A DNA stretch of 64,000 nucleotides from NCBI GenBank assembly GCA_017460395.1, contig JAFUBA010000034.1, positions 1-64,000 on the forward strand. Direction: 5' to 3'. This DNA comes from Clostridia bacterium (GTDB lineage Bacteria > Bacillota > Clostridia > Christensenellales > Aristaeellaceae). Shown here in pieces: positions 6,353 to 42,776 of this stretch (positions within the stretch are counted from its first letter, which is position 1; each line of letters starts with the position of its first letter). The translations under genes were made by a program, and so were the position numbers. The notes under the pieces are model-generated. The model searched no databases and was not told the DNA's origin. It was given only the letters and a program-made list of their open reading frames with translations.

Positions 6353-6381
6353 ATCATATCACCGGCCAGGCCCCCGTGCAA
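6353..6381 (-). promoter_or_regulatory. SigA-type promoter for the ACT-domain gene
   Basis: Read on the minus strand, -35 TTGCAC (6381-6376) and -10 TATGAT (6358-6353) are 17 bases apart, about 60 bases upstream of the ATG at 6291. The rest of 6382-6514 shows only GC-rich sequence and an A-rich tract near 6487-6500. Confidence 0.65.
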
Positions 6382-6514
6382 TTGCGCATCGGCGCCCGGG
6401 GAACTTCGGCGCCCGCCCCCGAAAAGCCGCAGAACCCGCCTGTTTCCTGCGATTCCAGGCGTTTTACAGGAAGAAAGAATGTCCTCAAAAAAACAGAAAA
6501 CATACACGCAGCGC

Positions 6515-6559
6515 AAAAGAGAAAGGCTCCCCGGCAGCATTCATACTGCCAGAGAGCCT
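6515..6559 (-). terminator. Terminator of the riboflavin operon
   Basis: On the minus strand a 14-bp stem with three G-U pairs (arms 6559-6546 and 6537-6524, 8-base loop) is followed by TTTCTCTTTT. It lies 15 bases after the riboflavin kinase stop. Confidence 0.9.
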
Positions 6560-6573
6560 GTGCACTGTGAAGA

Positions 6574-6975
6574 TTACTCGGACGCCTCATCCATCTCCCG
6601 CGCTATCTGCCTGGTGCGAAGGGCATCCTTCTCCACCTGCCGCTCCACTTCCTCCAGGGAATGCATTCTGGTGGTGGGGCGCAGGTATTCATACAGTTTC
6701 AGCGTCATCGGCTTTCCGTACACGTCTCCCGAGAAATCCAGGAGCAGCGTCTCGACGGTCGGCGTCTCCAGTGCACCGAGGGTCGGACGGAAACCCACAT
6801 TGGTGACGCCGAGATACCATCTGCCGTCCAGTTCGGCCTTCGCAGCATATACGCCAAAGGGCGGGAGGACATCCTCCGGGGACAGACTGAGATTTGCCGT
6901 CGGCATCCCGACGGTGTGCCCGTTCCCCTCGCCGTGGACGATCTGTCCGTGAAGTGTATACATCGGCCTGTCCAT
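6574..6975 (-). CDS. Stand-alone riboflavin kinase
   Basis: This 133-residue protein corresponds to the C-terminal flavokinase domain of bifunctional RibF, which phosphorylates riboflavin to FMN with ATP. The signature is visible as GQIVHGEGNGHTVGMPTANL near residues 10-29, followed by FGVYAAKAELDG and VTNVGFRPT near 67-75. The FAD synthetase (nucleotidyltransferase) half is absent, and the short length is not caused by truncation, because GGAGG sits just upstream of the ATG at 6975. The open frame extends to 7020 but lacks family resemblance there. It follows the ribU-like gene by 31 bases and shares its FMN riboswitch. It would make FMN only; FAD synthesis would need another gene. Confidence 0.88.
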   Translation of the reverse strand: MDRPMYTLHGQIVHGEGNGHTVGMPTANLSLSPEDVLPPFGVYAAKAELDGRWYLGVTNVGFRPTLGALETPTVETLLLDFSGDVYGKPMTLKLYEYLRPTTRMHSLEEVERQVEKDALRTRQIAREMDEASE

Positions 6976-7006
6976 CTGTCCTCCGCCTTTCTTTCCTATG
7001 CTGCTC

Positions 7007-7606
7007 TCACCCGCGCACACGCTCGTGCAGCAGCGGGGAGAGCGGCTTGTAGATGAGCCCTGTCACCACGCTGAGCACAACACCCTTGAGCAGATTGAAG
7101 GGTCCTGTGATCAGAAGCAGCAGCTTCCATTCGCTGTCCACCCCGTTCATGCCGGCGAAGGCAAGGATGCCGTCCATGTCCATGTGGTAGGCACCCATGT
7201 AGAAGGGCAGCATGATGTATTTGTTGATGATCACGCCCGCCACGGTCATGCACAGCGTGCCGACGGCCATGCCGATCAGAGCATTTTTCCGTGTCTTGTC
7301 CCGGTGATAGATGAGGGACGCGGGCACCACCAGGGCGGCACCCATGAGGAAGTCGGCCAGCTCGCCCACCCCCGCGCTGGAGGAGTGCAGAAGACCGATC
7401 AGGCTCTTGAGAGCCAGGATGATGATCCCGGGCACCGTGCCCATGGAGAAGGCGCCCAGCAGCACCGGCAGGTCGCTCAGATCCAGCTTGTAGAATGCCA
7501 CCACCGGGATCTCCAGCATGAACAGGATCGAGGCGACGGCCACCAGAATGGCCATACGGGTCAGGTTCGCAGTGGAGAACAGATTTCTTTTTTCGCGTGC
7601 AGACAT
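7007..7606 (-). CDS. ribU: Riboflavin ECF transporter substrate-binding subunit, RibU-like
   Basis: This 199-residue polytopic membrane protein has about six hydrophobic helices. The first is TRMAILVAVASILFMLEIPV, followed by the KLDLSDLPVLLGAFSMG region typical of RibU and ECF_trnsprt S components. It would capture riboflavin and pass it to the shared EcfAA'T energising module, which is not in the window. The start at 7606 (MSAREKRN) is chosen because AGGAGG lies 8 bases upstream. The open frame continues upstream only because it runs through the riboswitch. Co-transcription with riboflavin kinase and FMN riboswitch control support riboflavin as the substrate. Confidence 0.9.
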   Translation of the reverse strand: MSAREKRNLFSTANLTRMAILVAVASILFMLEIPVVAFYKLDLSDLPVLLGAFSMGTVPGIIILALKSLIGLLHSSSAGVGELADFLMGAALVVPASLIYHRDKTRKNALIGMAVGTLCMTVAGVIINKYIMLPFYMGAYHMDMDGILAFAGMNGVDSEWKLLLLITGPFNLLKGVVLSVVTGLIYKPLSPLLHERVRG

Positions 7607-7614
7607 ACAGAAAA

Positions 7615-7670
7615 CCTCCTGAAATAGATCAACCCGCCCCCGAAGCATTTCGCTGATCTGGGGCGGGTTT
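7615..7670 (-). promoter_or_regulatory. Hairpin between FMN riboswitch and ribU start
   Basis: On the minus strand AACCCGCCCC and GGGGCGGGTT form a 10-bp stem with an additional small AGC/GCT helix inside. It ends about 10 bases before the AGGAGG of ribU and has no T run. It could be the expression platform: an interrupted terminator, or a structure controlling ribosome access. Its mechanism is inferred. Confidence 0.55.
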
Positions 7671-7699
7671 GCGGCAGTTACATTTCTGCCGTTTTGCCG

Positions 7700-7815
7700 A
7701 TCTTCTCTCATCCAGACTGTGACTGTCGGCTTCGGAATTTCACCGAATCGGCTGGACCTCTGTCCAGTTCGCGGGCTGTACCGCCGGTAGGGATTTTCAC
7801 CCTGCCCCGAAGATG
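7700..7815 (-). ncRNA. FMN riboswitch (RFN element)
   Basis: The minus strand carries the conserved RFN core blocks in order: CTTCGGGGCAGGGTGAAA, TCCCTACCGGCGGTACAGCC, CGAATCGG-type arm read as GATTCGGTGAAATTCCGAAG, and CCGACAGTCACAGTCTGGAT closing with GAGAGAAGAT. This order and spacing match the FMN aptamer upstream of riboflavin biosynthesis and transport genes. It lies about 95 bases upstream of the ribU-like ATG, with an intervening hairpin as a likely expression platform. Confidence 0.97.
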
Positions 7816-7845
7816 CTCTCAGTGGCTGTTCAGTTGTCGATGCAG

Positions 7846-7873
7846 ATTCTAGCACTGTCATTCCATCTGTCAA
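7846..7873 (-). promoter_or_regulatory. Promoter for the riboflavin operon
   Basis: On the minus strand -35 TTGACA (7873-7868) and -10 TAGAAT (7851-7846) are 16 bases apart. They place the transcript start a little upstream of the FMN riboswitch. Confidence 0.75.
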
Positions 7874-7893
7874 GCGATTTCTGTAAAAACGAC

Positions 7894-7946
7894 CAAAAAA
7901 AGTCAGAAAGGCAGCCGGCCCTGACTGATCCCGGGCTGGCTGCCTT
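7894..7946 (-). terminator. Terminator of the hsp20 pair
   Basis: On the minus strand AAGGCAGCC (7946-7938) pairs with GGCTGCCTT (7916-7908), with an inner GCCC/GGGC stem. It is followed by TCTGACTTTTTTT. It sits just after the stop of the downstream hsp20 copy. Confidence 0.88.
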
Positions 7947-7957
7947 ATGTTCTCGCA

Positions 7958-8404
7958 TTATCCCTCAATGCAGATGGTCTTCTTTTCAGGTACACGCTTC
8001 ACATTCTTTGGAAGCTCCAGGTGCAGCACACCGCTCTCAAACCTTGCGTGGATGTCCTCCTCCGTCAGCTGATCGCCCACGTAGAAGCTCCGCTGCATGG
8101 ACCCAGTGTACCGCTCCTGGCGGATGACCTTGCCCTCTTTGTTCTTCGTGTCCTCATCGTGGCCCTTCCTGGCACTCAGCGTCAGATAGCCCTGGTTCAG
8201 TTCCAGGCTGATCTCGTCCTTCTTAAAGCCCGGCAGGTCCACGTCCACCTCGTAGTGATCCTCGTGCTCCCGCACATCGGTCTTCATGACGTGGTCCGCG
8301 TGCTTGCCATACAGGCGGCGGTCCATGTTCCGCATCTCACGGTCCATCGGGAAATCAAACCAGTCATCGAAAAGATTCTCTGTAAAAAGACTCGGCAGCA
8401 ACAT
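7958..8404 (-). CDS. Small heat shock protein Hsp20, downstream copy
   Basis: This 148-residue alpha-crystallin-family chaperone binds unfolding proteins without ATP. The N-terminal region (MLLPSLFTENLFDDWFDFP) precedes an alpha-crystallin domain at about residues 40-135, with the VDLPGFKKDEISLELNQGYL core. A GVLHLELPK segment near the C-terminus follows. The start at 8404 is supported by GAGGAAC a few bases upstream and by alignment with the neighbouring copy, also 148 residues. The two copies differ at only a few positions, such as LLPSL/LMPSI, KHAD/KRAD and TKNK/TKNR. It is the second gene of a two-copy operon, with a strong terminator after it. Confidence 0.93.
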   Translation of the reverse strand: MLLPSLFTENLFDDWFDFPMDREMRNMDRRLYGKHADHVMKTDVREHEDHYEVDVDLPGFKKDEISLELNQGYLTLSARKGHDEDTKNKEGKVIRQERYTGSMQRSFYVGDQLTEEDIHARFESGVLHLELPKNVKRVPEKKTICIEG

Positions 8405-8459
8405 CACTCGTTCCTCCTCACTGTTCTTATGTATCCGGGTAACGGGCATCAGCCTCGGC

Positions 8460-40549: not shown

Positions 40550-40639
40550 ATTCCCAAGACACCCGGAAGGTGACATGGACCGCGAGGCTTTGCCTTCATC
40601 TGGAACACATGCCACACAGCACGTGACTGGAGGTTTAGA

Positions 40640-42442
40640 GTGACAAACTGGAAAGAGCTCACCGTGCTCGAGCTGCGAAAGGCTGCAAGAGAGCGTCACA
40701 TTCCCGTCAAGGCCGGCGCCAACAAGGCATATATCGTACAGCTCCTGGAAGAGGATGAGGCTGCAGCCGGGGATGCCCCGGCGCCGTCCAACTCGCAGGC
40801 ACCGAAGGTGCCAGATGAAGCTGTCCTGACATCGCCTGCAGAAAACGCGGCATCGGAAGATCACCCTGCAGAAGATGTACCTGTGGAAACCCCGCCCCGG
40901 AAAAAGCCCCGGAAGGTGAAGGAACCGGTCGCCGTGCAGCTCTCCCTGGATGACCTTGAGCTGGATGAAACCCCCGATGGCACCCGGGAGAGCCAGCCAG
41001 GCGCCGAACCCGCGCCGAAGCCGTCTGCACCTGTGGAAGAGGCGGCGCCTTCGCCCCGTGAGGAGCAGCCCAAATGGACCGCACGCTTCGGCCCAGGCGC
41101 TGCGGCCGCGCCCCGCCCGCATTTCGGTCCGGCAGCACGCCTTTCAGATGAACCTCCCCGCAGGTTCGGCCCATATCCCTCCCCTGCCCCGTCAGAGGCG
41201 CCAGCACCGCATGCGCAGGAGGAGAGCGGCAATCCCGTTCAGTCTGGGCACAACGCCTTCGTGTCTCCCTTCTCGCCCTCCATTCCTGCACCCTCCACGG
41301 ACACGCAGGAGACGCCCGAGGAGGCAACCCTCACGGAGACAAAGGGATATCTGGAGCTCACGCCCGAGGGATATGGGTTCCTCCGCTCGGCCTTCATCGC
41401 GCCCTCCGTGCGGGATGCGTATCTCTCCAGCTCCCTCGTGCGCCGCTTCGGCCTCAAATGGGGCGATGAGATCAGGGGGCCCGTCCGTCCTCCCCGGGAC
41501 GGCGACCGCTTCCCGACCGTGGTGGACGTCACCGAGGTCAATGGCGAGACGGCCGTGGAATCCCCTGAGCGCCCCACCCTCGATGACCGCACACCAATCT
41601 ATCCAGAACGCCATCTGGACCTCGGACGCAGCCGGTTTCTGGACATGCGGCTGCTGGATCTGGTGCTGCCTGTCGGATACGGCCAGCGCGCTCTTCTGAT
41701 CGCCCCGCCGGATGCGGGCAAGGCACGCTTTCTGACCCATCTCGCCGCAGCCGCCCAGGCAGCAGATCCGTTTCTGCAGGTCATCACCCTGATCCTCGAC
41801 AAGACGCCCGAGGACTGCACTGCATGGCGCGAGGCTGCCAAAGGCACCGTCTTTTCCGCCACCTTCGACATGCCCCCGGATGTCCATCTGCGCATGAGCC
41901 AGATGGCGCAGGAGCGCGCCAGCAGGCTTCTGGAGGACGGGAAGGACGTCATGCTGATCGTCGACAGCCTGACCCGCCTGAGCAAGCTTTCCTCCTCCCC
42001 CGCCAGCCTGACAAGATCGGCCGGCGGCATCAACCAGCAGTCCCTGATGCGCGCCAAGCGGCTTCTGGCCTCAGGCCGGGAGCTGCGGGAGGCAGGGAGT
42101 CTGACGGTGGTCGGCGTGCTGGATGTGGAAAACGGCAACCGGACAGACGACAGTCTGGTGAGTGAGTTCCGGGAGAGCGCCAATCTGGAGATCGTCTTTG
42201 ACTCCTCCATCACGCGAAGCGGCCTCTACCCGGGCATTTCCCTTGTGAAGAGCAGCTGCCAGCAGAGGGAGACGCTGTCTGACCCCGACATGCAGCAGGT
42301 GTACAAGGCCATTCAGGATGTGACCGCCGGCATGAATGCTGCTCCGGCGCTCAGCCAGATTCTCGCTTTCCTGCAGGCCGTACCGGACAACCACGACCTC
42401 CCCGGCGCACTGAGCGCATGGGTGAGACGGTTCCGCAGCTGA
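40640..42442 (+). CDS. rho: Transcription termination factor Rho, with degenerate ATPase site
   Basis: This 600-residue protein is Rho by architecture and locus. It has an N-terminal Rho_N helical domain (ELTVLELRKAARERHIPVKA) and a ~180-residue Pro/Ala/Glu-rich insertion. The RNA-binding OB fold (GYLELTPEGYGFLRSAF, RRFGLKWGDEI) and RecA-like core follow. The Walker A reads APPDAGKAR where Rho normally has APPKAGKT, so the Mg-coordinating Thr is Ala at 362. The catalytic Glu of the usual DERPEEVT is Lys388 (LDKTPEDCT). The positions of the two interface arginines read Ser and Gly (~528). Walker B Asp442 (IVDSLTR) remains. Helicase activity is doubtful; an RNA-binding role is possible. GTG start with GGAGG. 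rpmE follows, as in many Firmicutes. Confidence 0.88.
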   Translation: MTNWKELTVLELRKAARERHIPVKAGANKAYIVQLLEEDEAAAGDAPAPSNSQAPKVPDEAVLTSPAENAASEDHPAEDVPVETPPRKKPRKVKEPVAVQLSLDDLELDETPDGTRESQPGAEPAPKPSAPVEEAAPSPREEQPKWTARFGPGAAAAPRPHFGPAARLSDEPPRRFGPYPSPAPSEAPAPHAQEESGNPVQSGHNAFVSPFSPSIPAPSTDTQETPEEATLTETKGYLELTPEGYGFLRSAFIAPSVRDAYLSSSLVRRFGLKWGDEIRGPVRPPRDGDRFPTVVDVTEVNGETAVESPERPTLDDRTPIYPERHLDLGRSRFLDMRLLDLVLPVGYGQRALLIAPPDAGKARFLTHLAAAAQAADPFLQVITLILDKTPEDCTAWREAAKGTVFSATFDMPPDVHLRMSQMAQERASRLLEDGKDVMLIVDSLTRLSKLSSSPASLTRSAGGINQQSLMRAKRLLASGRELREAGSLTVVGVLDVENGNRTDDSLVSEFRESANLEIVFDSSITRSGLYPGISLVKSSCQQRETLSDPDMQQVYKAIQDVTAGMNAAPALSQILAFLQAVPDNHDLPGALSAWVRRFRS

Positions 42443-42512: not shown

Positions 42513-42575
42513 GCCGCCCGTGGCTGATATTGAAAGATGTCGCTCATTGTCTACCAGAAAGAGGTGAAGAGATCA

Positions 42576-42776
42576 ATGAAGGACAAGATTCATCCGAAGT
42601 ACGGCAAGTGCATCGTGCGCTGCGTGTGTGGTGAGACGTTTGAAACCGGCTCTACCAAGAAGGAAATGAAGGTGGATATCTGTTCCAAGTGCCACCCCTT
42701 CTACACCGGCAAGCAGAAGCTGGTGGATGCCGGCGGACGTGTCGATCGCTTCAAGAAGCGTTACGGCATGGAGTAA
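42576..42776 (+). CDS. rpmE: 50S ribosomal protein bL31
   Basis: This 66-residue ribosomal protein begins [20 protein letters not shown]. It carries the zinc-binding cysteines of the C+ type (C...CVCG and CSKC), followed by [21 protein letters not shown]+ paralogues are used when zinc is sufficient. The ATG at 42576 has AGAGGTGAAGAG upstream; the frame to 42537 has no support. It has its own promoter and terminator. Confidence 0.97.

Follow-up and report, generated by a model that had tools for sequence, protein, structure and literature searches.

A rho gene with a dismantled ATPase site, probably maintained for an RNA-binding scaffold, in a family of gut Clostridia

The window, i.e., the whole stretch of 64,000 nucleotides analyzed here from a Clostridia bacterium, carries a rho gene whose product retains the predicted fold and the RNA-binding site of Rho but lacks the catalytic Glu, the Arg valve, the Arg finger, and the P-loop Thr. 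On balance, we read this gene as a vertical descendant of rho that has turned into a non-motor pseudo-ATPase and that selection keeps for RNA binding, probably as a multivalent scaffold, although the activity itself is inferred. Rho has probably shifted from a motor to an RNA-binding scaffold in this group of gut bacteria.

The gene order at the locus is SAM-methyltransferase, rho, rpmE, DUF1385, prmC, and prfA. An initial sequence-only reading had described this as a normal Firmicute-type rho locus, and the rpmE, prmC, and prfA neighbours agree with that description. The features of the gene are as follows.

40629..40633, + strand: GGAGG ribosome-binding site, 5' of the GTG start
40640..42442, + strand: degenerate rho gene (600 aa), a single open frame with a GTG start at 40640
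40640..40774, + strand: N-terminal Rho_N-like helical domain, residues 1-45 (helices 9-18 and 29-44, pLDDT >90; invariant T8, V9, L12, R13, and K14)
40775..41317, + strand: disordered region, residues 46-226 (pLDDT mostly <50)
41084..41095, + strand: first RFGP motif, residues 149-152
41120..41131, + strand: HFGP copy of the motif, residues 161-164
41162..41173, + strand: second RFGP motif, residues 175-178
41336..41548, + strand: OB-fold RNA-binding domain, residues 233-303 (primary-site residues Y245, F247, R249, D259, and Y261 kept)
41705..41725, + strand: altered Walker A, PPDAGKA (K181D and T185A, Lys184 kept; from the alignment)
41801..41806, + strand: lost catalytic Glu and Arg valve, K388 and T389 (E211K and R212T; from the alignment)
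41963..41965, + strand: retained Walker B Asp442 (from the alignment)
42203..42262, + strand: region of lost arginines, S522 (R347), G528 (R353), and Q541 (R366) (from the alignment)
42537..42776, + strand: rpmE, a marker of the ancestral rho locus by gene order

Pfam matched the protein with Rho_RNA_bind (PF07497) at 80 bits and ATP-synt_ab at 61 bits. Against the NCBIfam models it reached 282 bits for TIGR00767 rho, below the cut-off of 509, and 217 bits for NF041509 (Rho2 short form), below the cut-off of 628. The AlphaFold model of the core (pLDDT 92.3; a prediction, of the monomer only) has the RecA-type core fold of Rho, and its best PDB matches in Foldseek were all Rho, with TM scores of 0.84-0.90 over the query (about 0.89). 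Pfam, the alignment, and the structure prediction thus concur with the initial view that the OB fold, the Walker B Asp442, and the overall fold remain.

We aligned the window Rho with E. coli Rho and others, using E. coli numbering. Seven residues are replaced, namely K181 (D358), T185 (A362), E211 (K388), R212 (T389), R347 (S522), R353 (G528), and R366 (Q541), while K184 (K361) and D265 (D442) are retained. The Walker A pattern GK[ST] is broken, reading GKA with Lys184 present and Thr185 gone; the Glu211/Arg valve 212 pair is absent, and so are the Arg finger R366 and R353. The first four of these changes had been reported by the sequence-only reading exactly as we find them. Its loss of arginines also stands, but not its labels, as the serine assigned to R353 corresponds to R347 and Gly528, assigned to R366, corresponds to R353; the true R366 is Gln541, which leaves the earlier conclusion unchanged and adds one more lost residue. 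Residues that might compensate for the lost Lys, Thr, Glu, and Arg of the pocket were sought by alignment, and none was found.

The ATPase residues of Rho are described as highly conserved among divergent bacteria (PMC8828861), and in E. coli Rho the E211A substitution alone abolishes hydrolysis with ATP binding and oligomerization unaffected (PMC4499133). With seven replacements where that one is already sufficient, a working motor is very unlikely, and the loss of the catalytic Glu, Arg valve, Arg finger, and P-loop Thr strongly supports the prediction that hydrolysis has been lost in the window Rho. A protein unable to hydrolyse ATP could not act as a 5'-3' translocase. The proposed protein would thus keep the Rho fold and the primary RNA site of the OB fold without ATP hydrolysis. 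That it binds RNA and does not hydrolyse ATP or translocate is inferred at the sequence level, from the retention of the OB-fold site and from the lost catalytic residues, respectively, in support of what had been suggested at the outset.

A second, canonical rho was sought in the whole assembly (4.3 Mb, 95% complete), which holds no intact rho, only two copies, both defective. The second copy (686 aa, contig C200 (L005), 6371-8431, - strand) adjoins rsmG and is 37% identical to the window copy. It carries K181D, T185S, E211K, R212A, and R353N, with an Arg aligned at R366, and the Rho tree places it inside the genus of the window on a long branch. Contamination is an unlikely source of this contig, given that its tetranucleotide profile agrees with that of the window (0.941) about as closely as does the profile of the contig with the genome's rpoB (0.946), and is the same as in the rest of the genome. 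Other weak matches in the assembly resemble rotary ATPases, and the one inspected was F1 beta. In another genus (g10), the sole rho found also lies near rsmG.

We then scored eight diagnostic residues (K181, K184, T185, E211, R212, D265, R353, and R366) across the GTDB family. Fifty-six of 100 genomes had a protein above the Rho cut-off, most of the others scoring 70-460 bits. All eight residues were present in 44 of the 88 aligned Rhos (E. coli included), and the other 44 were without one to eight of them, one of these (G086b) being merely cut by a contig end. Many degenerate Rhos occupy the same locus as the intact rho of their relatives. The P-loop and Walker B are unrecognizable in genus g36; no P-loop at all is left in genera g14 and g36, which nonetheless retain the gene; and in genus g7 Rho_RNA_bind is still matched, and the Pfam ATPase domain no longer is. 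Alignment with related genomes extended the initial observation to many relatives. As the degenerate state is common to so many of them, the state of the window Rho is not due to chance, and an assembly artefact is ruled out because dozens of assemblies show it, among them a genome in only two contigs (G097).

Beyond the family genomes, a scan of named GTDB records, overlapping some of them, placed 49 degenerate relatives before the first intact Rho; these come from metagenome-assembled Clostridia, many from the gut of ruminants or other herbivores, and include Christensenella sp. UBA2853. Among 59 genomes spanning the class, Rho was intact by score (at least 532 bits) or absent, as it was in several genomes, and only the window's genome was intermediate. 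Other wrecked Rhos occur in a few further families of the order (f14, f28, f29, and f32, and as an additional copy in f31). In other families of the order, the OB fold is present and the P-loop unrecognizable in the Rho relatives L258, L259, L260, L268, and L275, one of which is a second copy in a genome (G211) that also has an intact rho.

In the RpoB/RpoC tree of 69 genomes, the window belongs to a clade of 22 genomes whose Rhos are all degenerate, and more degenerate lineages lie among intact ones. If lost residues never return, the tree contains eight maximal all-degenerate clades, indicating about eight separate losses in the family; this count hinges on unresolved forks and on whether a lineage with just one change is included. 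The Rho gene tree, built without the diagnostic columns, broadly matches the RpoB/RpoC tree, which indicates vertical descent. The loss of residues came after vertical descent, often in place.

Nearly all degenerate Rhos share a short motif in the disordered N-terminal region. R149, F150, G151, and P152 are invariant in 31 full-length relatives, in a region that is otherwise poorly alignable. Within the family set, FGP occurs in 40 of 44 non-intact Rhos versus five of 43 intact ones, and these five (G076, G037, G030, G094, and G027) are intact lineages nested among degenerate ones. By parsimony, this nesting indicates that acquisition of RFGP probably preceded the loss of the ATPase residues. 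In the named set, FGP was present in 55 of 56 degenerate and none of 24 intact Rhos; the exception is a planctomycete with K181R only, and most of these intact Rhos belong to other groups. Sampling of Rhos in the order's other families yielded none with FGP, and RFGP was not found outside Rho in the other sampled ORFs, the listed matches being rho genes that had escaped the filter. In the full-length model of the window protein, the motif is of low confidence and undocked on the core, and we therefore rejected intramolecular docking. FGP has grown to six to eight copies, as near-tandem GFGPQ, in the disordered region of Rho from three genomes (G001, G003, and G008; L091 3965-6067, L092 4051-6423, and L008 163-2385). 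We infer that RFGP is a partner-binding or clustering motif. Speculatively, it would recruit a partner to, or drive clustering on, nascent or untranslated RNA, with Rho as the scaffold.

If the protein is no motor, it could still be a nucleotide-gated switch, binding ATP, ADP, or (p)ppGpp unhydrolysed through the Walker A Lys and the Walker B Asp to control ring opening or filament formation. Of 39 degenerate Rhos, 74% retain K184 and 92% retain D265, and inactive polymers of E. coli Rho are driven by ADP and ppGpp (PMC11829017). A large group of named species, moreover, combines GK[ST] (GKT) with a Val that has become fixed in place of the catalytic Glu (LLIDVNPE; L096, L107, L108, L111, L112, L118, L120, L121, L123, L125, L126, L130, L134, L136, and L138), a form that looks like an ATP-binding, non-hydrolysing Rho. 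However, the window Rho has Ala in place of T185, a residue that just 44% of the degenerate Rhos retain, and the genera without any P-loop retain the gene, so that we hold the switch to be unlikely. Judging from the residues left, some degenerate lineages with E211, K184, and T185 may keep slow hydrolysis.

Selection bears on whether the gene is simply on its way out, rho being dispensable as in the rho-less Bacilli. The absence of Rho from several genomes of the class, the many losses of ATPase residues, and the long branches of both copies in the window's genome would be in line with such decay. Against it, frames are open in dozens of degenerate copies, and dN/dS of the degenerate ATPase domain between close species pairs is 0.04-0.34 (median 0.10; median for intact Rho 0.14). 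Single ratios are rough, as some dS values are near saturation. The primary RNA-site residues that are invariant in intact Rhos are kept at 95% in the 39 degenerate Rhos, in which retention at the ATPase site is 46% for Walker A, 5% for K181, 49% for E211, 31% for R212, 8% for R347, 0% for R353, and 33% for R366. The ratio of ATPase dN to OB dN in close pairs is 1.57 for degenerate and 0.82 for intact Rhos, the degenerate ATPase domain now evolving faster than the OB fold. RNA-site retention and low dN/dS indicate that degenerate Rho is no pseudogene and that selection preserves it as a folded protein that binds RNA; together with the invariant RFGP, they make decay improbable for the group. 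Evolution is fast in the window copy and in its paralogue (pairwise dN/dS about 0.5 in the ATPase domain, with long branches), and relaxation in this one genome is therefore possible.

A re-wired but working ATPase, in which a charge swap (D358/K388) or residues from elsewhere substitute, could be imagined from the co-occurrence of K181D and E211K in both copies of the window's genome and in G005; yet the swap is missing in most relatives (E211 becomes Val, Phe, Ala, or Arg, and K181 becomes Gly, Asn, or Gln) and R353 is lost in 39 of 39 scored, leaving very little room for it.

NusG was found in most genomes with a degenerate Rho, but not in the assembly of the window's genome. In the genus of the window (g1; L276-L281), the conserved KOW glycine of NusG is Val and F165 is Leu; the same glycine is Val in genus g45 (L282-L284). 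In E. coli, the I164-F165-G166 loop of NusG contacts Rho (PMC7593976), and the altered loop is in keeping with the classical Rho-NusG pathway having been lost in the g1 branch. Termination by an ATP-independent Rho that attaches to the elongation complex and RNA and stops RNA polymerase allosterically, with no translocation, has a precedent in the allosteric priming of the elongation complex proposed to precede ring closure in E. coli Rho (discussed in PMC9908020), but the same authors hold ring closure and translocation necessary for release (PMC9908020) and the NusG contacts are altered in this very genus, which renders it highly doubtful.

Relaxed coding purine bias is expected once Rho termination ceases (PMC13323073). 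The raw coding purine excess family-wide was 0.018 in genomes with degenerate Rho versus 0.049 in those with intact Rho; the difference was not significant under phylogenetic least squares, with few independent contrasts, and hence is evidence neither way. On the reading of a non-motor Rho, canonical Rho-dependent termination would most likely be lost in the genus of the window. The changed termination system that had been anticipated for this lineage follows by inference, in agreement with the pattern across the clade and with the changes in the KOW domain of NusG.

Compared with canonical Rho (TIGR00767; E. coli, T. thermophilus, and M. tuberculosis), the window Rho has the same locus, domain order, OB primary site, and predicted RecA-type fold, and differs in the missing ATPase residues and in the added N-terminal RFGP. 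With the Rhos of B. thetaiotaomicron and C. botulinum, it has in common an extended disordered N-terminus that contains short conserved stretches; those proteins, however, are described as active terminators tuned by condensation or amyloid, whereas here the motor site is gone (PMC13269538, PMC11829017). The Rho2 short form (NF041509) is likewise a Rho-related exception, but the window protein is long and below its cut-off. The rho-less Bacilli (PMC13323073) are also Bacillota that dispense with Rho-dependent termination; the gene is lost there and kept under selection here. We found no report in the open-access literature of an ATPase-dead Rho retained in a lineage.

Conceivably, though we put this wider picture forward only tentatively, the sole Rho has several times over become a selected RNA-binding pseudo-ATPase within one family of gut Clostridia, with RFGP acquired first as a partner motif and transcript surveillance rebuilt around a non-motor Rho. 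The presence of rho in a genome does not imply Rho-dependent termination. A clade that has dismantled the ATPase many times and kept the protein is a natural experiment separating the RNA-binding role of Rho from its motor role; it allows a test for motor-less termination, and RFGP offers a handle on a putative partner.
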